A stretch of 64,000 nucleotides of DNA from Stutzerimonas degradans (GTDB taxonomy: Bacteria > Pseudomonadota > Gammaproteobacteria > Pseudomonadales > Pseudomonadaceae): NCBI RefSeq assembly GCF_024448505.1, contig NZ_JAMOHV010000003.1, forward strand, positions 186,001 to 250,000. The letters run 5' to 3'. A program made the position numbers and the translations under genes. The notes beneath the pieces were generated by a model. The model did no database searches, was not told where the DNA came from, and saw only the letters and a program-made list of their open reading frames with translations. Below, one piece after another: positions 15,086 through 36,821 of this stretch. How positions within the stretch are numbered: the first letter of the stretch is position 1; every line of letters starts with the position of its first letter.

Positions 15086-16999
15086 ATGAGTGACAAGAGC
15101 AAGAACAATCCCGAAACGCTGGAGAAGGGTGGTCTGAGCCGCCGTGGCTTCCTCGGCGCAACCGCCATGACCGGTGCGGCTGTTGCCGCCACCGCTCTGG
15201 GTACTTCCGTCATGACCCGCGAGTCCTTCGCGGCGGCAGTCAAGGACGCCCAGTCCAAGATCCACGTCGGACCGGGCGAGCTGGACGAGTACTATGGCTT
15301 CTGGAGCGGCGGCCACCAGGGCGAAGTGCGCGTACTGGGCGTGCCGTCGATGCGCGAGCTGATGCGCATCCCGGTATTCAACGTCGACTCGGCTACCGGC
15401 TGGGGCCTGACCAATGAGAGTAAGGCGGTGCTGGGTGACAGCGCCAAGTTCCTCAACGGCGACTGCCACCACCCGCACATCTCGATGACCGACGGCAAGT
15501 ACGACGGTAAGTACCTGTTCATCAACGACAAGGCCAACACCCGCGTCGCGCGTATCCGTCTGGATATCATGAAGTGCGACAAGATCCTGACCGTGCCGAA
15601 CTGCCAGGCCATTCACGGCCTGCGCCTGCAGAAGGTGCCGCACACCAAGTACGTCTTCGCCAATGCCGAGTTCGTCATTCCGCACCCGAACGATGGCAAG
15701 GTGTTCGATCTGCAGGACGAAAACAGTTACACCATGTACAACGTGATCGACGCCGAGAAGATGGAAATGGCGTTCCAGATCATCGTCGACGGCAACCTCG
15801 ATAACACCGACGCTGACTACACCGGCCGCTTCGCCGCCTCCACCTGCTACAACTCGGAGAAGGCCTTCGATCTGGGCGGCATGATGCGCAACGAGCGCGA
15901 CTGGGTCGTGGTGTTCGACATCCACGCGGCTGAGAAAGCCGTCAAGGCTGGCAAGTTCATCACTCTCGGCGACTCCAAGGTGCCGGTCCTCGACGGCCGC
16001 AAGAAGGGCGAAAAGGACAGCGAGTTCACCCGCTACATTCCGGTGCCGAAGAACCCGCACGGCTGCAACACCTCGCCGGACGGCAAGTACTTCATCGCCA
16101 ACGGCAAGCTGTCGCCGACCTGCTCGATGATCGCCATCGACATGCTGCCTGACCTGTTCGCCGGCAAGCTCAAGGACCCGCGTGACGTTGTTGTCGGCGA
16201 GCCGGAGCTGGGCCTTGGCCCGCTGCACACCACCTTCGACGGCCGCGGCAACGCCTACACCACGCTGTTCATCGACAGCCAGCTGGTCAAGTGGAACATG
16301 GAGGAAGCCCGTCGCGCCTACAAGGGCGAGAAGGTCAACTACATCAAGCAGAAGCTCGACGTGCACTATCAGCCGGGCCACAACCACGCCTCGCTGTGCG
16401 AAACGCGCGACGCGGACGGCAAGTGGGTCGTCGTGCTGTCGAAGTTCTCCAAGGACCGCTTCCTGCCAACCGGCCCGCTGCACCCGGAGAACGATCAGCT
16501 GATCGACATCTCCGGCGACGAGATGAAGCTGATGCACGACGGCCCGACCTTCGCCGAACCGCACGACTGCATCATGGCTCGCCGCGACCAGATCAAGACC
16601 AAGAAGATCTGGGACCGCAACGATCCGTTCTTCGCTGAAACCGTGAAGCGCGCCGAGAAGGACGGCATCAACCTGACCGCCGACAACAAGGTCATCCGCG
16701 ACGGCAACAAGGTACGCGTGTACATGACCTCGATGGCGCCGGCGTATGGCATCAACGAGTTCACCGTCAAGCAGGGCGATGAAGTCACCGTGACCATCAC
16801 CAACATCGACCAGATCGAGGACGTGTCCCACGGCTTCGTCATGGTCAACCACGGTGTGAGCATGGAGATCAGCCCGCAGCAGACCTCTTCCATTACCTTT
16901 GTGGCCGACAAGCCCGGTCTGCACTGGTACTACTGCAGCTGGTTCTGCCACGCGCTGCACATGGAGATGGTCGGCCGCATGATGGTCGAGCCGGCGTAA
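15086..16999 (+). CDS. nosZ: Nitrous oxide reductase
   Basis: 637 residues, clade I NosZ. A Tat signal with the twin Arg at residues 19-20 ([11 protein letters not shown]) shows folded export to the periplasm. The seven-bladed propeller carries the CuZ histidines (for example DCHHPHISM). The C-terminal cupredoxin domain has the CuA site [12 protein letters not shown]: Cys617, Trp619, Cys621, His625 and Met628. It reduces N2O to N2, the last step of denitrification. The start has AAGGAG upstream. A strong hairpin follows the stop, separating it from nosDFYL. Confidence 0.98.
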
Positions 17000-20215: not shown

Positions 20216-20791
20216 ATGAATCGGCTTTATCATCACGGTATTCGCGCGCTGTTGCTGCTGGCCCTAGGCCTGGGGCTGGCCGCCTGCGGTGAAAAGGAAG
20301 AGGTCAAGCAGACGCTCGATCCGGTGGCCTTCCACGAGAATGACGAATGCCACGTATGCGGCATGGTCATCAGCGATTTCCCCGGGCCGAAAGGCCAGGC
20401 GGTGGAGAAGGGCGGCGTGAAGAAATTCTGTTCCACCGCCGAGATGCTCGGCTGGTGGCTGCAGCCCGAGAACAAGCTGCTCGATGCCAAGCTGTACGTG
20501 CACGACATGGGCAAGAGCCAGTGGGAGCACCCGGACGACGCCTACCTGATCGACGCGACCAGCGCCTATTACGTGATCGGTACTTCGCTCAAGGGCGCGA
20601 TGGGCGCGTCGCTGGCGACCTTCTCCGACGAGGCGGCTGCGCAGAAACTTGCGGCCGAGCATGGCGGTCGCGTGCTGCGCTTCGAGCAGATCGACCAGGC
20701 CCTGCTGCAGGAGGCCGCGAGCATGCAGCACGGGGCGATGCACGATGAGCACGCGCCAGCGCAACACGACAACGCACACGCCGGTCACTGA
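20216..20791 (+). CDS. nosL: NosL, copper-delivery lipoprotein
   Basis: 191 residues. Lipoprotein signal with lipobox LAAC (Cys24). The metal site is the conserved [17 protein letters not shown] (Cys45, Cys48, Met50), which binds Cu(I). The C-terminal extension is rich in His and Met ([22 protein letters not shown]), longer than in many NosL proteins and suited to copper capture. NosL delivers copper to apo-NosZ. The start has AAGGAG. tatE follows after about 30 bases. Confidence 0.94.
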
Positions 20792-21239: not shown

Positions 21240-21253
21240 CTGATTGCAATCAA
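21240..21253 (+). promoter_or_regulatory. FNR/DNR box upstream of nnrS
   Basis: CTGAT-TGCA-ATCAA, nine of ten consensus positions, 130 bases before the nnrS start. The -41.5 rule would put the transcript start near 21288, leaving a leader of about 95 bases. Confidence 0.78.
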
Positions 21254-21382
21254 GTCTGTCGAGGGCTTCTAACCTGTAGAAAGTAACCCTGGCTCCCGAT
21301 GTCGTGGGAGCGCACATGGTTCCGGTCAGCTTGCACCATCCAGGCGCATCTGCCGGGCATGAGAACGATCTGGAGGCCTTCC

Positions 21383-22573
21383 GTGCAAGTTATCGATCGG
21401 CGAAAAGCCCTGAGTATCCCGCCCATCTGGAGGCTCGCGTTTCGCCCGTTCTTTCTCGCCGGCAGCGTCTACGCGCTGCTGGCAGTTCCGCTCTGGGTCG
21501 CCGCCTGGACCGGCTTATGGCCGGGCCTGCAACCCACCGGCGGCTGGCTCGCCTGGCATCGCCACGAAATGCTGTTCGGCTTTGCGATGGCCATCGTGGC
21601 CGGTTTTCTGCTCACCGCGGTACAGACATGGACCGGCCAGGTCGCGCCTTCCGGCAACCGGTTGATGGCGTTGGCGCTGGTCTGGCTGGCGGCGCGTCTG
21701 GGCTGGCTGTTCGGTTTGCCGCTGGCGTTGCTGGTGCCGCTGGAACTGCTGTTTCCGCTCGCCGTCGCGCTGCTGATGGCGCAGATGCTTTGGGCGGTGC
21801 GGCAGAAGCGCAATTACCCGATCGTGGCGGTGCTGTCGCTGATGATCGCAGCCGACGTGCTGGTGCTGGTGGGGCTGCTGCAGGGCGATGATGGTCTGCA
21901 ACGCCAGGGCGTGTGGGCCGGGCTGTGGCTGGTGGCCGCGCTGATGGCGCTGATCGGCGGACGGGTGATCCCGTTCTTCACCCAGCGTGGTCTGGGCTGG
22001 GTCGAGGCGATCAAGCCGTGGGTCTGGCTGGATATCGCCTTGCTGGTCGGCACAGCGCTGATCGCGATTCTCTACGCGATGGGACTGGGGCTGCAGGCGC
22101 ATCCGCTGCTGGGGCTGCTGTTCGCCCTGGTCGGTGCCGGGCACCTGCTGCGTCTGGCGCGCTGGTACGACAAAGGGATCTGGGGCGTCGCGCTGCTGTG
22201 GTCGTTGCATCTGGCGATGCTCTGGCTGGTGGTGGCGGCGTTCGGTCTGGCGCTCTGGCATTTCGGCCTGCTGGTCAATGCCAGCCCGGCGCTGCACGCG
22301 CTGAGCGTCGGCTCCATGAGCGGCCTGATCCTGGCGATGATCGCGCGGGTCACCCTGGGGCATACCGGCCGGCCGCTGCAGCCGCCGGCGGGAGTCGTCG
22401 CCGCCTTCGTACTGTTCAATCTGGGCACGCTGGCGCGGGTGTTTCTCGCGGCGGTCTGGCCGGTCGCCGGACTCTGGCTCGCGGCGCTGTGCTGGACGCT
22501 GGCCTTCCTCATCTACGCTTGGCGCTACGCACCGATGCTGGTGAGGGCGCGGGTCGATGGCCATCCGGGCTGA
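21383..22573 (+). CDS. nnrS: NnrS family heme- and copper-containing membrane protein
   Basis: 396 residues, about twelve transmembrane helices, opening with the family hallmark WRLAFRPFFLAGS and LAWHRHEMLFGFA (conserved His residues), later VIPFFTQRGLG and GMILAMIARVTLGHTGRPL-like sequence. NnrS proteins relieve nitrosative stress during denitrification. I chose the GTG at 21383: GGAGG stands seven bases upstream and the protein then has 396 residues, the size I recall for ORF396 at this place in P. stutzeri. A longer in-frame start at 21299 is less likely. Controlled by the DNR box at 21240. Confidence 0.9.
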   Translation: MQVIDRRKALSIPPIWRLAFRPFFLAGSVYALLAVPLWVAAWTGLWPGLQPTGGWLAWHRHEMLFGFAMAIVAGFLLTAVQTWTGQVAPSGNRLMALALVWLAARLGWLFGLPLALLVPLELLFPLAVALLMAQMLWAVRQKRNYPIVAVLSLMIAADVLVLVGLLQGDDGLQRQGVWAGLWLVAALMALIGGRVIPFFTQRGLGWVEAIKPWVWLDIALLVGTALIAILYAMGLGLQAHPLLGLLFALVGAGHLLRLARWYDKGIWGVALLWSLHLAMLWLVVAAFGLALWHFGLLVNASPALHALSVGSMSGLILAMIARVTLGHTGRPLQPPAGVVAAFVLFNLGTLARVFLAAVWPVAGLWLAALCWTLAFLIYAWRYAPMLVRARVDGHPG

Positions 22574-23474: not shown

Positions 23475-24581
23475 ATGTGGTTCAAGAACAAGGCGGCGCT
23501 GCGGCTGCAGCAGGAGCTGGACGCACTGCGCGCCAGCCATGCCGAGCAGGCCACGCGCATTGCCGGGCTGGAGCAGCAGCTGCAGCAGGCCGAAACCGCC
23601 AGCCGGGGCCGCCAGCGCCAGCTCGATTATTACCGCGGCGTGTCCGCCAGCCTGACACGCTTCAGTGTGTCGGTTGCGAACCTGAGCGAATCCTTCGAGT
23701 TCCTCACCGGTCAGTTGGGCGAGAACAAAGGGCGCGCCGGTGAAGTTGCGGCGGCCGCGCTGAGCAACCAGAAGCACTTCGGTGAGCTGCAGAGCCGTGC
23801 CGCGGAGATGGAAAGCGGTCTGGACCTGGCGTCGCGCAAGGTCGATACCCTGGCCGAGCGCTCGCAGGAGATCAACGGCATCGTTGACCTGATCAGCGGC
23901 ATCGCCAGTCAGACCAACCTGCTGGCGCTCAACGCGGCCATCGAGGCGGCGCGTGCCGGCGAGGCAGGCCGTGGCTTTGCGGTGGTCGCCGGGGAAATCC
24001 GCAGTCTGGCGGAAAAGACCGCGCTGGCGACCGACGACATCGTGCGCAAGATCGGCGAGGTGCAGGCCGAGATTCGCAACGTGCACGACTACATTCAGCT
24101 GCAGGGCGCCCACGCGCAGGGCTTCAGCCGTACCACCGAGGAGGCGGTCGGCGCGATGCGCACCCTGCACCAGCTGGCCGGCGCGATGCGCGAGAGCAGT
24201 TCGGCGGCTTCGCTGCGCGCCGGGGTCGAGCTGGCCAACCTCGACGAGTTGTCGCTGAAGTTCGTCGTCTACAACCACCTGCTCGGCGAGCGCTCGCAGC
24301 AGGCGCCACAACTACCCGGCGAGCGCGATTGCCGCTTCGGGCGCTGGTACTACGGCGAGGGCAATCGGGACATCCAGGCGCTGGATTGTTTCGCCCAGAT
24401 CGAGCGGCCCCATACCGCGGTGCACGCGCAGGGACAGGCGGCGATCGACGCATTCGGACAGGACTCGCTGGAGAACGCGCTGCGCCATCTGGAGCGGATG
24501 GAGGAGGCCAACCTGGAGGTGATGCGCATCGTCAACGCCGTGATCGAGCAATACGAGCGAAGCGTAACGCGGGCTGCCTGA
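23475..24581 (+). CDS. Soluble methyl-accepting chemotaxis protein with CZB domain
   Basis: 368 residues with no transmembrane segment. An N-terminal coiled coil (about 8-60) leads into a shortened MCP signalling domain; the tip motif is [32 protein letters not shown]-like (here in pieces [20 protein letters not shown] and [18 protein letters not shown]). From about residue 250 a CZB zinc-binding domain follows ([34 protein letters not shown]), with the His and Cys ligands. CZB domains sense zinc or hypochlorite-type oxidants via the zinc-cysteine. It sits 12 bases after the SDR gene and probably shares its mRNA. A cytoplasmic redox or zinc chemoreceptor within a denitrification island is notable. 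Confidence 0.88.
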
Positions 24582-24640
24582 GCCAGCGAGGCGTTGCGAA
24601 GCACGATTGGTCGGTCGTAAAAATGACCAAACGCATGTTT

Positions 24641-24657
24641 GTGCAATTTTATTGCAC
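24641..24657. promoter_or_regulatory. Palindromic operator candidate upstream of orphan ccoN
   Basis: GTGCAAT-TTT-ATTGCAC, perfect 7-bp arms, followed 6 bases later by a further half site TGCAAT (24664-24669) and a -10-like TACTAT (24669-24674). It lies in an AT-rich stretch between the chemoreceptor and ccoN. A regulator-binding site overlapping the promoter is likely; the regulator is unknown. Confidence 0.45.
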
Positions 24658-24874
24658 TCTACCTGCAATACTATTCGTTAGAGATTATTCAACCGTCCGC
24701 TGACAATGCGCAGGCATTCCGTCTGCGCGACTCACCGTCGCGTCCGAACATGAACCGGTCCCTGGAGGAGCGGCGAGTGAGTGCGGTGTGCCGGTCCGTC
24801 GACCATTGGAAGTGTTGCGCCTGCAGATTTCTATGCTCGTTCACCCGGTGCCCGTGCTGGCCCGCCCAGCGAGC

Positions 24875-26317
24875 ATGAGCGAACAGCACAACCCTGAAGC
24901 GATCGCCTACAACTACCACGTGGTGCGGCAGTTCACCCTGATGACCCTGGTCTGGGGCGTAATCGGCATGGGGCTCGGGGTGTTCATCGCGGCGCAATTG
25001 GTGTGGCCCCAGCTGAACTTCGATTTGCCGTGGACCAGTTTCGGGCGGCTGCGGCCCATCCATACCAATCTGGTGATCTTCGCCTTCGGCGGCGGCGCGC
25101 TGTTCGCTGCGTCGTTCTACGTCGTGCAGCGCACCAGTCACGCCCGGCTGATTTCCGATCGCCTGGCCAGCGTGGTGTTCTGGGGCTGGCAGGCCGCCTG
25201 CGTGGCGATGCCGGTCACCTATGCGCTGGGCTACACGACATCCAAGGAATACGCCGAGATGGAGTGGCCGATCGCGCTGTGGGTCACGCTGATCTGGGTG
25301 CTCTACGCCTACCTGTTCTTCGGCACCATCGCACGCCGCCGGATCGGCCACATCTATGTCGGCAACTGGTTCTTCGGCGCGTTCATCATCGTCACCGGCA
25401 TGGTGCACATCGTGAATCACGCGCTGATCCCAGTGAGCCTGCTCAAGTCCTATTCGCTGTACTCCGGCGCGACCGACGCGATGGTGCAGTGGTGGTACGG
25501 CCACAGCGTGGTGGGCTTCATCCTCTCGGTGGGCTTTCTCGGCATGATGTATTACTTCGTGCCGAAGCAGGCGGGGCGCCCGATCTATTCCTACCGGCTG
25601 TCGATCGTGCACTTCTGGGCGATCATCTCCATCTACATCTGGGCCGGCCCGCACCATCTGCACTACACCGCTCTGCCGGACTGGGCGCAGAGCCTGGGCA
25701 TGGCGATGTCCATCATCCTGCTCGCACCGAGCTGGGGCGGCATGATCAACGGCATGATGACCCTGTCGGGCGCCTGGCATAAGTTGCGCACCGATCCGAT
25801 CCTGCGCTTTCTGGTGGTGTCGCTGGCCTTCTACGGCATGTCCACCTTCGAGGGCCCGATGATGGCGATCAAGACCGTCAACGCCCTGTCGCACTACACC
25901 GACTGGACCATCGGCCACGTACACGCGGGTGCTCTCGGCTGGGTGGCGATGATCTCCATCGGTTCGCTGTATCACCTGATTCCGCGGCTCTGGGGTCGTG
26001 AGCAGATGTACAGCGTCGGCCTGATCAACGCGCACTTCTGGTTGGCGACCATCGGCACTGTGCTCTACATCGCCTCGATGTGGGTCAACGGCATCACCCA
26101 GGGCCTGATGTGGCGCGCGGTCAACGAGGACGGCACGCTGACCTACTCCTTCGTCGAGGCGCTGGAAGCCAGTCATCCCGGCTACCTGGTACGCATGACC
26201 GGCGGCGCGATCTTCGCCACTGGCATGTTGCTGATGGCGTTCAATACCTGGCTGACCGTGCGCACTGCGCGCGAAGAGCCACTGACCGGCGTGCCGCCGC
26301 TGACCGTGGCCGGCTGA
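24875..26317 (+). CDS. ccoN: Orphan cbb3-type cytochrome c oxidase subunit I (CcoN)
   Basis: 480 residues, twelve transmembrane helices. All metal ligands are seen: His in [12 protein letters not shown], the CuB His in [11 protein letters not shown], the pair in AGPHHLHYT, and [10 protein letters not shown] near 345. The cross-linked Tyr region (IYSYRLS) is present. The usual QWWYGHN reads QWWYGHS here. No ccoO, ccoP or ccoQ follows: the next gene is HPP-CBS. In P. aeruginosa, orphan CcoN subunits swap into cbb3 complexes encoded elsewhere, some induced by nitrite or cyanide. I chose the ATG at 24875 ([17 protein letters not shown]), where homologues begin; the longer in-frame start adds 29 unconserved residues. 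Confidence 0.9.
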
Positions 26318-26410
26318 CCGTCTCACCGTTTTCCTCACCTGTCCAAGGACGGACTTTTTTATTCGCGCGCCCTCGCGGCGCCCCCCCGATCGATCCGCCA
26401 AGCAGTAAAC

Positions 26411-27550
26411 ATGCACGACTCCCTCAGCCTGTGGTTCCGCTCGTTCATCCCCGCTCCCCTGAATGCTTCACCGAAGGAATGGCTGCGCGCCGCCTTCGGC
26501 ATCGCCCTGGTCATGCCGCTGGTGTTCTGCGCCGGCTACTGGACCGTCGGCACGCCGCTGACCCTGCAGATCATGGGGCCGGCCGGGGCGTCGGCGGTGC
26601 TGGTGTTCGTCGCCTCGTCCAGCCCGTTCGCCCAGCCGTGGGCACTGATGGCTGGCAATGTGGTCGCCGCGCTGATCGGTATCGGGCTGGGCATGAGCGG
26701 CCTGCCGAGTGTGCTTTCGCTGGCGCTGGCGGCCTGTCTGTCGCTGATCTGCCTGTTTTCCCTGCGCTGTCTGCATCCGCCGAGCATCGCGCTGTCGCTG
26801 GTGGCGGCGGTCGGCGGCGCGGAGGTGCATCAGCTGGGGTTCGCGCTGATCGGCCCCGTGCTGTTCTATTCATTGCTGCTGGTGGCGGTTGCGCTGGTCT
26901 ACAACAACCTCACCGGGCATCCCTATCCGAAGCCGCGGCTGAGTCGCGAGAACGTCCATCACACCCATGACCTGTCGCCCGGTGAGCGCATGAGCTTCAC
27001 CCATGATGACGTCGACCAGGCGTTGCGGGAGTTCGGCGAATACGTCGACGTCACCCGCGACGACCTCGAGCGCTTGATCAAGCAGACCGAGAAGCACGCG
27101 CTGCGCCGCAGCATGGGGGAGATCACCGCGGCGCACGTGATGTCGCGCGATCTGCGCTGGCACACCCCGGATACCTTCATCGAGCAGGCCTGGCAGACGC
27201 TGCAGGCACATCGGCTGCGCTCGCTGCCGGTGGTGGAGGGCGACGATCATCGACTGGTCGGCATCGTGACGCAGGTGGATCTGCTCAAGCACTTCCACCC
27301 GCAGCCGGGGCGGCTCAGCTTCGGCCAGTTGAACTTCCTGCGCGGCACCAAGCTGCGTGCCATCATGACGTCGCCCGTGGTGTCGGTGACGGCCGATACG
27401 CACATGGTCGAGCTGGTCTATCTGCTCTCCGACCGCGGCTTGCACTGCCTGCCGGTGATCGATGCGCAGCAGCGGCTGATCGGCATGATCACCCAGACTG
27501 ACCTGATCGCCGCGCTGTACCGTAACTGGCTCAAGCATCTGCCGGACTGA
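26411..27550 (+). CDS. HPP family membrane protein with C-terminal tandem CBS domains
   Basis: 379 residues. The first half is an HPP domain: four or more hydrophobic helices (about 25-170) with LHPPSIALSLVAAVGG near residue 120, which names the family. The second half has two CBS domains (about 237-295, VMSRDLRWHTPDTFIEQAW to GIVTQVDLL, and about 314-375, IMTSPVVSVTADTHMVELV to GMITQTDLI). Plant and cyanobacterial HPP proteins have been linked to nitrite transport; CBS pairs bind adenine nucleotides. In this island a nucleotide-gated nitrite carrier is a reasonable guess, unproven. It follows ccoN by 93 bases. Confidence 0.82.
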   Translation: MHDSLSLWFRSFIPAPLNASPKEWLRAAFGIALVMPLVFCAGYWTVGTPLTLQIMGPAGASAVLVFVASSSPFAQPWALMAGNVVAALIGIGLGMSGLPSVLSLALAACLSLICLFSLRCLHPPSIALSLVAAVGGAEVHQLGFALIGPVLFYSLLLVAVALVYNNLTGHPYPKPRLSRENVHHTHDLSPGERMSFTHDDVDQALREFGEYVDVTRDDLERLIKQTEKHALRRSMGEITAAHVMSRDLRWHTPDTFIEQAWQTLQAHRLRSLPVVEGDDHRLVGIVTQVDLLKHFHPQPGRLSFGQLNFLRGTKLRAIMTSPVVSVTADTHMVELVYLLSDRGLHCLPVIDAQQRLIGMITQTDLIAALYRNWLKHLPD

Positions 27551-27563
27551 GCCGGCGCGCCAA

Positions 27564-28424
27564 TCAGATCTCGTAGTACCAGCGCGACCAGTCGAAGTCG
27601 TCGCGGGCCACTTCGCGCAGCAGCTCGATGGCCTTGGCCAGCGCCGGCGACTCGCTGGCGCGGGCGTGGACCAGGTAGATCGGGTAGGAAAACTCCGGCG
27701 CCTGCTCCACCCGCTTGAGAACGCCGCTCTCCAGATAGCGCTGGACCACGCGGGTGCGGAAGTAGCCGCGCCCGCCGCACTGCACCAGATACTGCAGCGC
27801 CAGCGGGCCGAGGCCGAACGACAGCGCGGCGCGGGTGTACTCGGGCAACGCCTGGTTGTGCTGCTTGCGGAACGCCGGGCCCCAGTCGACATACAGGTAG
27901 GGTGTGGGGTTTTCTGCCTGCACCACCTGGATCAGCTTTTCCTCCAGCAGTTGTTCGATCTGCAGGCCCGGCCAGTATTCCGGCTGGTGCACCAGTGCGG
28001 CATCGAGCACGCCGAGGTCGAGCTTCTTCTGCAGCTCCTCGCCGCTACCGACCTCCAGCCGTACCGCATGGCTCGGCAGGCTCTGACGCAGGCGCTGGAC
28101 CCACGCCAGCATCAGCGGATTGCACAGGCTCACTTCGGAACCGAGGGTCAGCAGCTTGCCGCCGCCCTGCGACAGCGGCAGATCGCGCCGTGCGGCTTCC
28201 CAGGTCTGCACCAGTTGGTTGGCGTAGGCGACGAAGCGCTCGCCGTCGTCGGTCAGCCGCGCGCCGGCACGGTTGCGCACGAACAGGCGGCAGCCCAGCT
28301 GGCTTTCGAGGTTGTGCACCCGCGCGGTCACCGCCGTCTGGGTGATATGCATGCGTTCGGCGGCACCGATGAAGCTGCCGCTGCGGATGATCTCAAGAAA
28401 GGTACGGGCAAGATCGATATCCAC
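27564..28424 (-). CDS. LysR-family transcriptional regulator
   Basis: 286 residues. N-terminal winged HTH (TFLEIIRSGSFIGAAERMHITQTAVTARVHNLE, residues about 7-40), then a periplasmic-binding-like effector domain. The start is a GTG at 28424 with GAAGG nine bases upstream. It is on the minus strand, downstream of nirJ-nirE-nirN and convergent with the HPP-CBS gene. I recall ORF286 of this size here in P. stutzeri. Its effector and targets are unknown. Candidates are the neighbouring ccoN/HPP transcript or its own promoter. Confidence 0.88.
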   Translation of the reverse strand: MDIDLARTFLEIIRSGSFIGAAERMHITQTAVTARVHNLESQLGCRLFVRNRAGARLTDDGERFVAYANQLVQTWEAARRDLPLSQGGGKLLTLGSEVSLCNPLMLAWVQRLRQSLPSHAVRLEVGSGEELQKKLDLGVLDAALVHQPEYWPGLQIEQLLEEKLIQVVQAENPTPYLYVDWGPAFRKQHNQALPEYTRAALSFGLGPLALQYLVQCGGRGYFRTRVVQRYLESGVLKRVEQAPEFSYPIYLVHARASESPALAKAIELLREVARDDFDWSRWYYEI

Positions 28425-28550: not shown

Positions 28551-30074
28551 TTAGTGCGAGGTGCCTTCGGCGAATTCGATCTTGTTGCCGACGTTGTACT
28601 TGCCGGAGGGCTTGTTCATCGGCAGGCGCTTGATCTCTTCCAGCGTGTTGGCGTCGTAGACGATCAGGGCGCCGTCCTTGTCCCAGACACTGAGCAGGGC
28701 GTAGCGACCGTCGTTGGTGAATTCCACGTGGGCGGCGATCTTGCCGGGCATCGGCCGCAGCGTGTGGGCGACTTCCAGGCGCTGCTTGTCGATCAGGTGC
28801 ACGACATCGTTGTTCGGACCGAAGAACACGTCGGTCCAGGCATAGGGCGAGTTCTGCTGGCTGCGCATGAAGAAGCCCGGACCCTGGGTGGGGATTTCCT
28901 TGATCAGCTTCCAGGTTTCCAGATCGAGCACCGAGATCAGCCCCTTGCTGATGTTCGGCGTGGCGAATACCCACTTGCCGTCGCGCTTCCAGTAAATGCC
29001 CGAGCCCAGGTGCGGCATGCCCGGCAGCGGGATGTCGGTGACCACCCGGCCGCTGTCCAGTTCGATCACCTGACCGCCGTGGGCCTGACGCGAGGTGGCC
29101 AGCAGATGGCTGTAGTCAGGGGTGAAGGAGAAGTCGTCGAGGAAGTCTTTCGCCTTGATCCGCCGCGGCTCGAAGGTCGGCTCGCCGGCATAGGACAGCT
29201 CCCAGGCTTCCTTCACGTCCTTCAGGGCGACCACGAAGCTGTTGCGCGGCGGCGCGGTGTAGACGGCGCTGACCCGCGACGGGGTGCCGTCCTCGGCGAC
29301 TGCCGGGATGTGCTTGACCAGCGACAGGTCGCGGGCGTCGAGCAGCACCAGATTGCCCGGCAGGTAGTTGCCCACCAGTACCCAGCGGCCGTCGTTGCTG
29401 ACTGCCAGGTTGCGGGTGTTCAGTCCGGCGCGCACCTCGGCGATCTTGGTCAGGTTGTGCAGGTCGTACTTGCTGATCCAGCCATCACGCGAGGCGAAGT
29501 AGACGAAGCGGCCGTCCGGCGAGAACTTCGGCCCGCCATGCAGGGCGAAATGCGACTGGAAGCGTGTCAGCGGCTCGAAGCGGTCGCCGTCGAGGATGGT
29601 CACGTGGTGGTCGCCGGCTTCCACCACGACGAACAGGTTCAGCGGATCGGCGCCGTGCTGCGGGGTGGTGGGCAGCTTGGCCAGGTCGGCAAGCATGCGA
29701 TGGCTGGCGCGGATGTCGGCGTCGCTCCAGCTCGGCGGGGTGGCCGGCGGCTGGTACAGATAGGTCACCAGACTGGCGATCTGCGTTTCGTCCAGCACGC
29801 TGGAAAACGCCGCCATCTGGCTGGCCGGGCGCCCGTCGCGGATCACCTTGTGCGCTTCGGTCGGCTTGATCCGTCCGAGGCTTTCGGGCAGCAGGGCCGG
29901 GCCGGCGCCGCCCAGGCGGTTGACGCCGTGGCAGCTCTGGCAATGTTGTTCGTACAGCGCCTGGGCCGTATCCGCGGCTTCGGCGGCGGCCGCTCGCGGC
30001 ACGGCCAGATCGAGTGCGACGAAGGTGGCAGCCGGCAGCGCGGCTGCCAGCAGCAGGGCAGGAATCAGCCGCAT
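28551..30074 (-). CDS. nirN: NirN, dihydro-heme d1 dehydrogenase (c-type cytochrome)
   Basis: 507 residues. After a signal peptide (to about residue 30, AAAAEA) comes a cytochrome c domain with CQSCHG and then an eight-bladed propeller like that of NirS (for example HGGPKFSPDGRFVYFASRDG, LGSGIYWKRDGKWVFA, HVEFTNDGRYALLSVW). NirN binds heme d1 precursor and introduces the acrylate double bond in the periplasm, the last step of heme d1 synthesis. It is the last gene of nirJ-nirE-nirN; its ATG lies 10 bases inside nirE. Confidence 0.95.
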   Translation of the reverse strand: MRLIPALLLAAALPAATFVALDLAVPRAAAAEAADTAQALYEQHCQSCHGVNRLGGAGPALLPESLGRIKPTEAHKVIRDGRPASQMAAFSSVLDETQIASLVTYLYQPPATPPSWSDADIRASHRMLADLAKLPTTPQHGADPLNLFVVVEAGDHHVTILDGDRFEPLTRFQSHFALHGGPKFSPDGRFVYFASRDGWISKYDLHNLTKIAEVRAGLNTRNLAVSNDGRWVLVGNYLPGNLVLLDARDLSLVKHIPAVAEDGTPSRVSAVYTAPPRNSFVVALKDVKEAWELSYAGEPTFEPRRIKAKDFLDDFSFTPDYSHLLATSRQAHGGQVIELDSGRVVTDIPLPGMPHLGSGIYWKRDGKWVFATPNISKGLISVLDLETWKLIKEIPTQGPGFFMRSQQNSPYAWTDVFFGPNNDVVHLIDKQRLEVAHTLRPMPGKIAAHVEFTNDGRYALLSVWDKDGALIVYDANTLEEIKRLPMNKPSGKYNVGNKIEFAEGTSH

Positions 30075-34339: not shown

Positions 34340-36088
<1,749 letters not shown>

Positions 36089-36479: not shown

Positions 36480-36821
36480 ATGACCCGCTCCCGACACGCA
36501 GTATCACGTTTGGGGCTGACCCTGGCGTCCCTCCTCCTGATTCCTGCGGCCCTGGCCGCGGCGCCCGCCGCCGAACGCCAGGCGCAACTCGAGCATCTGC
36601 TCCTGCAGGACTGTGGCTCCTGCCACGGCCTGCGCATGACCGGCGGCCTCGGCCCGGCGCTGACCCGCGACGCGCTTGCCGGCAAACCCCGCGACAGCCT
36701 GATCGCCACCGTCACCCACGGTCGTCCCGGTACCGCCATGCCCGGCTGGAAGGCCCTGCTCGACGAGCAGGACATCGCCTGGCTGGTCGATCTGCTTCTG
36801 CAAGGATATCCAAAGCCATGA
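36480..36821 (+). CDS. nirC: NirC, periplasmic c-type cytochrome
   Basis: 113 residues. Signal peptide (to AALAAAP), heme site CGSCHG, and GTAMPGWKALLDEQDIAWLV with the Met ligand. NirC is implicated in heme d1 maturation or electron transfer to NirS. ATG at 36480 with GGAGG. Its stop overlaps nirF (4 bases). Confidence 0.93.
   Translation: MTRSRHAVSRLGLTLASLLLIPAALAAAPAAERQAQLEHLLLQDCGSCHGLRMTGGLGPALTRDALAGKPRDSLIATVTHGRPGTAMPGWKALLDEQDIAWLVDLLLQGYPKP

Follow-up and report, generated by a model that had tools for sequence, protein, structure and literature searches.

Why does Stutzerimonas degradans keep, with a nos cluster and nnrS on one side and a nir cluster on the other, a gene that joins an HPP membrane domain to a pair of CBS domains? 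The window analysed here (the whole stretch, 64,000 nucleotides) had first been described in a sequence-only reading as encoding a candidate nitrite carrier, regulated by adenylate charge, that would be new for denitrifiers. The location between nos and nir genes is as that reading described, and the connection it drew between the HPP family and nitrite is found in the literature (PMC4137279, PMC7438415). The plastid nitrite transporter NITR2;1 (Maeda et al. 2014) has a Km for nitrite of 13 uM in a cyanobacterial mutant (PMC4137279), two HPP genes of Kuenenia (KSMBR1_2720 and KSMBR1_1075) are upregulated under nitrite limitation (PMC7438415), and the Desulfovibrio desulfuricans HPP gene Ddes_0524 is listed in a table of nitric oxide responses and lies four locus tags away from hcpR1 (PMC5701242). 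A literature search joining HPP, CBS domain and denitrification returned nothing, and searches on HPP family protein, TM_HPP or PF04982 returned no paper containing the term "CBS domain".

An HPP membrane domain fused to a CBS pair

The open reading frame was confirmed as real, and its composition matches the first description, an HPP membrane half followed by two CBS domains:

26411-27550, plus strand: HPP-CBS open reading frame, ATG start, 379 aa
26465-26929, plus strand: TM_HPP membrane domain, residues 19-173 (Pfam PF04982, 107 bits against a cut-off of 27.2)
26774-26782, plus strand: HPP motif, residues 122-124, within RCLHPPSIAL and without the HPPGGAT signature
27137-27295 (limits approximate), plus strand: CBS domain 1, about residues 243-295, with GIVTQVD (CBS-bearing models match about 240-295)
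27356-27517, plus strand: CBS domain 2, residues 316-369, with GMITQTD (PF00571)

The Pfam CBS model PF00571 matches the protein in two stretches with 94 bits, over its cut-off. HPP-CBS is a core gene of the genus: of 56 genomes searched, 55 gave a match (the poorest of the best hits had E 4.1e-121, and one match spans residues 1-347 only). The nearest among the named loci, that of Stutzerimonas stutzeri TS44, is 97% identical. In at least 9 of the 56 genus genomes (G055, G022, G031, G026, G049, G048, G036, G038 and G045; loci such as L106, L107, L110 and L173), a tandem second copy, 52-56% identical to the window protein, adjoins the first.

Among 46 aligned HPP-CBS proteins, H122-P123-P124, C120, A74, P76, W77 and N165 are invariant. 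The HPPGGAT signature is kept in 1 of these 46 rows, versus 27 of 30 HPP loci sampled at class level; the window protein has HPPSIAL at this point. It is like the HPP family, including NITR2;1 (which we compared by description), in its PF04982 match over the cut-off and its HPP motif, and unlike it in the fusion to two CBS domains and in the replacement of the signature. With the Kuenenia proteins it shares family membership and a proposed role with nitrite, but those come from an anammox organism, and the excerpts of their description make no mention of a CBS part (PMC7438415). Both CBS repeats of the window protein contain T-x-x-D, with D290, T361 and D364 kept in at least 90% of the 46 relatives and T287 in fewer. 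The T/S-x-x-D motif of CBS domains contacts the nucleotide ribose.

AlphaFold2 modelled the HPP part alone (residues 1-186) with a pLDDT of 93.3 and a pTM of 0.85, and the whole chain with less certainty (pLDDT 85.5, pTM 0.63). The predicted helices of the HPP part, which describe its fold and not its insertion in the membrane, span residues 21-45, 48-67, 76-94, 100-117, 123-134 and 137-167; the family is described as having four transmembrane helices (PMC7438415). Loops 68-75 and 118-122 of the model carry conserved residues and interrupt helices, and may in this respect resemble the substrate sites of channels. No solved structure fits the HPP part convincingly: Foldseek gave no PDB match at E up to 0.001, and the best VIA-align match, the only one with Z above 8, was the plant anion channel ALMT1 (Z 8.2, rmsd 6.2, 172 aligned), which is below the trust level for helical bundles. 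PDB sequence matches at E <0.05 fall in the CBS part, which matches AcuB and MgtE structures and has a fold like that of AcuB. A transport part joined to a cytoplasmic CBS pair, as predicted for the window protein, is also the plan of MgtE, of CLC proteins with CBS domains and of OpuCA, from all of which it differs in its membrane part. HPP-CBS is probably a transporter; its substrate, the direction of flux and any nucleotide binding or gating are points that we infer.

A regulator and an oxidase subunit are the conserved neighbours

The genes around HPP-CBS in the window are the following:

15086-16999: nosZ, upstream of HPP-CBS
20216-20791: nosL, upstream of HPP-CBS
21299-22573, plus strand: nnrS (PF05940), upstream of HPP-CBS
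24788-26317, plus strand: ccoN, orphan catalytic subunit of a cbb3 oxidase (TIGR00780, 704.7 bits), of CcoN3 type according to the tree below
27564-28424, minus strand: LysR-type regulator, convergent with HPP-CBS (best NCBIfam model HdfR, below cut-off)
28551-30074, minus strand: cd1-domain gene, nirN-like, downstream of HPP-CBS
starting at 34376 and at 36818, plus strand: two further cd1-domain genes

An SDR gene and a CZB chemoreceptor gene likewise lie upstream, after nnrS and before ccoN, and the gap between ccoN and HPP-CBS is 93 bp. Beyond the cd1-domain gene at 28551-30074 are tetrapyrrole methylase and radical SAM genes on the minus strand, which may be nirE- and nirJ-like. Another cd1-domain protein is encoded elsewhere in the same genome (G000:C3:398214-399338, E 1.2e-79), and extra cd1-domain proteins occur similarly in genomes G014 and G007.

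We compared the window with 115 further loci (79 mostly named, 36 from further genome stretches, some genomes appearing twice), 116 in all. A convergent LysR gene lies within 700 bp of HPP-CBS in 71 of the 116, and an orphan ccoN is found immediately upstream in 30. When HPP-CBS proteins were merged at 95% identity, the LysR gene accompanied 45 and ccoN 18 of 58 Pseudomonadaceae-like clusters, and at 80% identity 21 and 9 of 28. The distant clusters (24 at 95%, 21 at 80%, including the Pseudomonadaceae loci L166-L168) gave neither ccoN nor LysR. An adjacent ccoN was not seen in 86 of the 116 loci (40 of the 58 clusters), where its absence from a few, such as L074 and L075, is no evidence because these loci start at a contig end; the LysR gene and the promoter element described below are retained without ccoN in, for example, L089, L095 and L105.

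The embedding between nos and nir genes is lineage-specific among the 116 loci and local to Stutzerimonas and its relatives. Genes of the nir type lie within 10 kb of HPP-CBS mainly in Stutzerimonas and close relatives; nosZ does so in a few Pseudomonas too (L091, L100, L108 and L117, for example). Within the same distance, L124 (Leeia oryzae) has a NirS-like hit, and L133, L136-L138 and L151 have weak NirE-like hits, the one in L133 being a sirohaem synthase. The immediate neighbours, ccoN and LysR, had not figured in the sequence-only reading.

Some neighbours recur in smaller groups. Five Burkholderiales loci share a neighbour cluster represented by a CLC chloride channel with CBS domains, its members lying at a median of about 0.5 kb from HPP-CBS, and a MarR-type gene is close to HPP-CBS in five Burkholderiales/Solimonas loci; these neighbour clusters were identified by a Pfam scan on one representative each, after greedy gene calling that is crude in GC-rich DNA. 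Among the five cd1-less genus genomes of the family draw described below, three have nnrS at most 0.6 kb upstream of HPP-CBS. At L173, L174 and L175, from genus genomes without cd1 genes or narG, nnrS still stands within that distance.

The adjacent CcoN falls in a CcoN3 clade

We built a tree from 48 CcoN proteins, having dropped 5 near-copies from a set of 53, and a 100/100 branch divides it. One side holds all 20 HPP-linked CcoN, the window's included, drawn from at least six genera, together with 2 unlinked orphans; the opposite side holds all 20 CcoN of cco operons, 5 orphans and one contig-cut row. Genome G390 (6.6 Mb) has a CcoN1/2 pair, a ccoN4-like locus and an HPP-linked CcoN. Its orphan on the cco side has genes for a GntR-aminotransferase and for a nitrite/sulphite reductase (NIR_SIR) nearby, a setting that we take to be that of ccoN4 with MpaR and NirA. 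MpaR and NirA are covered in PMC10790758 and PMC12688703. Because the other orphan of G390 sits in this ccoN4-like setting, the HPP-linked one is most likely ccoN3. By its place in the tree, then, the window CcoN belongs to a clade outside the cco operons that we call CcoN3, a name that rests on the identification of the ccoN4 locus of G390 and on the gene order of ccoN4.

In P. aeruginosa, ccoN3Q3 is reported to respond both to anaerobic denitrification and, at 2% oxygen, to nitrite, each raising its expression, and to add nitrite resistance (PMC5697931); CcoN3 is also described as nitrite-resistant in PMC12688703, and both papers cite Hirai et al. 2016. The window orphan, of the same clade, is like this partial operon, but the short interval between ccoN and HPP-CBS leaves no room for CcoQ, and the excerpts of the two accounts do not discuss HPP-CBS. 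The order in G390 is ccoN3, an open reading frame of about 73 aa (the size of CcoQ), HPP-CBS and LysR. We suspect that PA1856, PA1855, PA1854 and PA1853 are the ccoN3, ccoQ3, HPP-CBS and LysR genes of P. aeruginosa. PA1856 is listed as a "probable cytochrome oxidase subunit" (PMC3171414); as leads only, PA1855 appears in a biofilm table (PMC6954232) and among raised genes (PMC12472822), and PA1854 is raised in mixed biofilms (PMC5458535). Our literature search on PA1853, PA1854 and PA1855 found, among the article excerpts returned, no paper on their function.

A palindrome recurs before the predicted operon

24651-24681 (core 24652-24668), plus strand: promoter element ATTGC-N9-GCAAT followed by ATTCGTTAG, a predicted LysR operator

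The palindrome TTGC-N9-GCAA was found upstream of ccoN, or of HPP-CBS where ccoN is not adjacent, in 37 of the 116 loci, against a mean of 0.65 and a maximum of 3 in mononucleotide shuffles, counts that are not to be read as probabilities because the shuffles keep base content alone and many loci are related or repeated. It was not seen in the other 79 loci, some of which are truncated by contig ends. Comparison of 16 distinct sites shows a spacer that varies among loci between two conserved arms, with ATTCRTTRG retained after them. Over the 2.15 Mb of sequence from the 115 loci there are 28 copies of the composite of palindrome and ATTCRTTRG, only upstream of the HPP-CBS operon: 27 of the 28 had been scored at the operon start, and the last (L085) lies 516 bp before HPP-CBS. 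The palindrome alone is neither rarer nor commoner in the window than chance (2 found, 1.5 expected). The LysR protein may bind the palindrome and control the operon, and ccoN and HPP-CBS may be co-transcribed. A terminator-like hairpin lies between the two genes at 26339-26352, from a scan that gave 2 sites against 1.8 by chance.

Control by Anr/Dnr from the region before ccoN was considered and set aside, there being no FNR-type box with at least 8 of 10 matches in 24401-24800. The ccoN coding sequence itself contains weak FNR-type boxes, at 25859 (1 mismatch) and at 26075 and 26231 (2 mismatches each), the last of them 180 bp before HPP-CBS, and these may give FNR-type control of that gene; read-through into the HPP-CBS region from a good box at 21240, ahead of nnrS, is also possible. 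Boxes of this type (TTGATNNNNATCAA) are enriched in the window as a whole, with 30 at no more than 2 mismatches against 8.1 expected (12755 and 40015 are examples).

HPP-CBS extends beyond denitrifying genomes

In a family draw of 148 genomes, full-length HPP-CBS occurs in 92. It is present in 35 of 43 genomes with cd1 genes versus 57 of 105 without (p=0.003, kinship and genome size being ignored), and outside the genus in 20 of 28 versus 52 of 100 (p=0.09). With narG there is no association: HPP-CBS is found in 32 of 50 genomes that have narG and in 60 of 98 that lack it (p=0.86). In one genus, all 18 genomes carry HPP-CBS, none has a cd1 gene and one has narG, so that 17 of the 18 have neither. 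Because more than half of the cd1-less genomes carry it and it is independent of narG, HPP-CBS is not a denitrification gene. A general role of that kind was rejected, nir neighbours being confined mainly to Stutzerimonas and relatives and cd1-less carriers being common. Set against nitrite metabolism more broadly, the distribution gives no clean contrast: NirB or cd1 is found in 89 of 92 carriers and 47 of 56 non-carriers (p=0.01, kinship ignored), and NirB alone in 83 and 45 of these (p=0.14).

In a class draw of 232 genomes, an HPP protein of any architecture scored over the cut-off in 93. Such proteins occur in 69 of 134 genomes with a nitrite reductase versus 24 of 98 without (p=4e-5, again ignoring kinship and genome size), an association carried by NirB (59 of 111) and cd1 (31 of 46), not by NirK (5 of 14) or NarG (15 of 36); here cd1 means strong matches only (46 of the 95 genomes with any), and NirK, NarG and NirB mean matches over the cut-off. 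From these genome counts, HPP proteins have a modest link to nitrite reduction as a whole, but not to nitrate respiration.

HPP and CBS as separate genes

Elsewhere the two halves are encoded apart, near nitrite reductase genes in two other gammaproteobacteria. At locus L220 (genome G068), HPP (182 aa) and CBS (209 aa) form adjacent genes upstream of nirS, and a LysR gene lies farther out; L218 (genome G274) has a divergent LysR gene and then the run HPP, nirB, nirD, CBS and molybdopterin reductase. The LysR proteins of L218 and L220 are 66% identical to each other and each 36-37% identical to that of the window; the palindrome was not evident before HPP at either locus. L218-L222 were picked by eye as contigs with both an HPP match and a nitrite or nitrate reductase match, and in L219, L221 and L222 the distance from HPP to the reductase is about 6-12 kb. 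Within a set of 22 HPP loci (L240, L241 and L243 left out), a nitrite reductase is encoded within about 6.5 kb in 2, both chosen for that reason; the gene calls here were again greedy ones, crude where GC content is high. In the class-level sample of 30 HPP loci (L032-L061, each about 3 kb), a separate CBS gene was found in 5 and a fused one in 1; L256 is an additional separate pair. Such separate genes give the best sign that HPP and CBS cooperate with each other and, in some genomes, with nitrite reduction; two of the cases are linked to nitrite, and these were found by looking for such neighbours.

Other arrangements were seen as well. In L047, L048, L051, L053 and L055-L057, the HPP domain is followed by a C-terminal soluble part of about 130 residues without a CBS match, and a DsrC-like gene (L220:11819-12178) immediately precedes the adjacent HPP and CBS genes that stand ahead of nirS.

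Discussion

Because it adjoins a CcoN3-type subunit and a regulator gene, HPP-CBS is probably part of a nitrite-protection set, and not of the denitrification pathway itself. We tentatively favour, while granting that it may well be wrong, the reading that HPP-CBS transports nitrite, or a similar small anion, across the inner membrane under CBS gating, and belongs to a small set (the promoter palindrome, ccoN3, HPP-CBS and the convergent LysR gene) that would allow respiration to go on as nitrite accumulates. CcoN3 would yield a cbb3 oxidase that escapes inhibition by nitrite; HPP-CBS would form a channel or carrier in the inner membrane; its soluble CBS pair would bind adenine nucleotides and open or close the HPP part according to energy state; and the LysR protein would control the ccoN3/HPP-CBS operon. 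We observed the protein and its domains, its conserved neighbours, the conserved promoter element and, near nitrite reductase genes in two genomes, HPP and CBS encoded apart; nitrite transport by HPP proteins in plants and cyanobacteria and the nitrite resistance of CcoN3 are taken from papers. Nitrite is the best single guess at the substrate, and no more than that.

The idea of nitrite thus survives in changed form, because the conserved partners are a nitrite-resistant oxidase subunit and a LysR regulator, not denitrification genes. It has gained from the CcoN3-type neighbour and from the separate HPP and CBS genes beside nirS or in a nirBD operon, and the framing of a carrier for denitrifiers has lost ground to the 57 carriers among 105 cd1-less genomes and to the independence of narG, with the lineage-bound nos/nir setting and the missing HPPGGAT signature also counting against the original interpretation. 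A bolder form, which we regard as rather doubtful, is a self-contained nitrite-resistance unit: the LysR protein would sense nitrite stress and, via the palindrome, induce both a nitrite-proof oxidase and an adenylate-gated HPP channel that clears cytoplasmic nitrite, independently of both NarK and denitrification; its unfused form would be the HPP and CBS genes that stand singly in nir neighbourhoods.

Several other explanations draw on the same observations. HPP-CBS could carry a different small anion (chloride, nitrate or an organic acid) for ion or pH balance, as the CLC-with-CBS gene about 0.5 kb away in five Burkholderiales loci, the loss of HPPGGAT and the many HPP-CBS genomes without cd1 or narG would allow, and as would the structural match to the ALMT anion channel, which is too weak for reliance; what speaks against this is that the gene is paired with CcoN3 and that HPP and CBS occur as individual genes next to nirS and nirB, and we think it rather unlikely. 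The CcoN3 pairing could also mean that HPP-CBS assists the assembly or regulation of the oxidase, through metal or haem delivery or as a nucleotide brake. Such a helper would account for the ccoN gene immediately upstream in 30 loci of several genera, but it is improbable given the 86 loci in which no adjacent ccoN was seen and those in which the LysR gene and promoter element are kept without it.

A membrane sensor, with the HPP part sensing and the CBS part signalling, would fit both the altered signature residues of other HPP proteins and the regulator gene close by in 45 of 58 Pseudomonadaceae-like clusters. LysR proteins, however, commonly sense ligands directly, themselves. HPP relatives, moreover, are reported as transporters (PMC4137279, PMC7438415), and we consider a sensor quite improbable. 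It is very improbable that HPP-CBS is a plain neighbour, functionally tied neither to ccoN3 nor to nitrite and kept in order by descent: the linkage is indeed strongest among close relatives, but the promoter element is kept despite a diverged spacer, and the convergent LysR gene recurs in several genera.

If our preferred reading of a CBS-gated transporter within a set for respiration under nitrite is true, a transport partner and a regulator would be identified for the nitrite-resistant CcoN3 oxidase, and the retention of an apparent "denitrification" neighbour in non-denitrifying bacteria would be explained. The HPP proteins, in turn, would gain a nucleotide-gated form.
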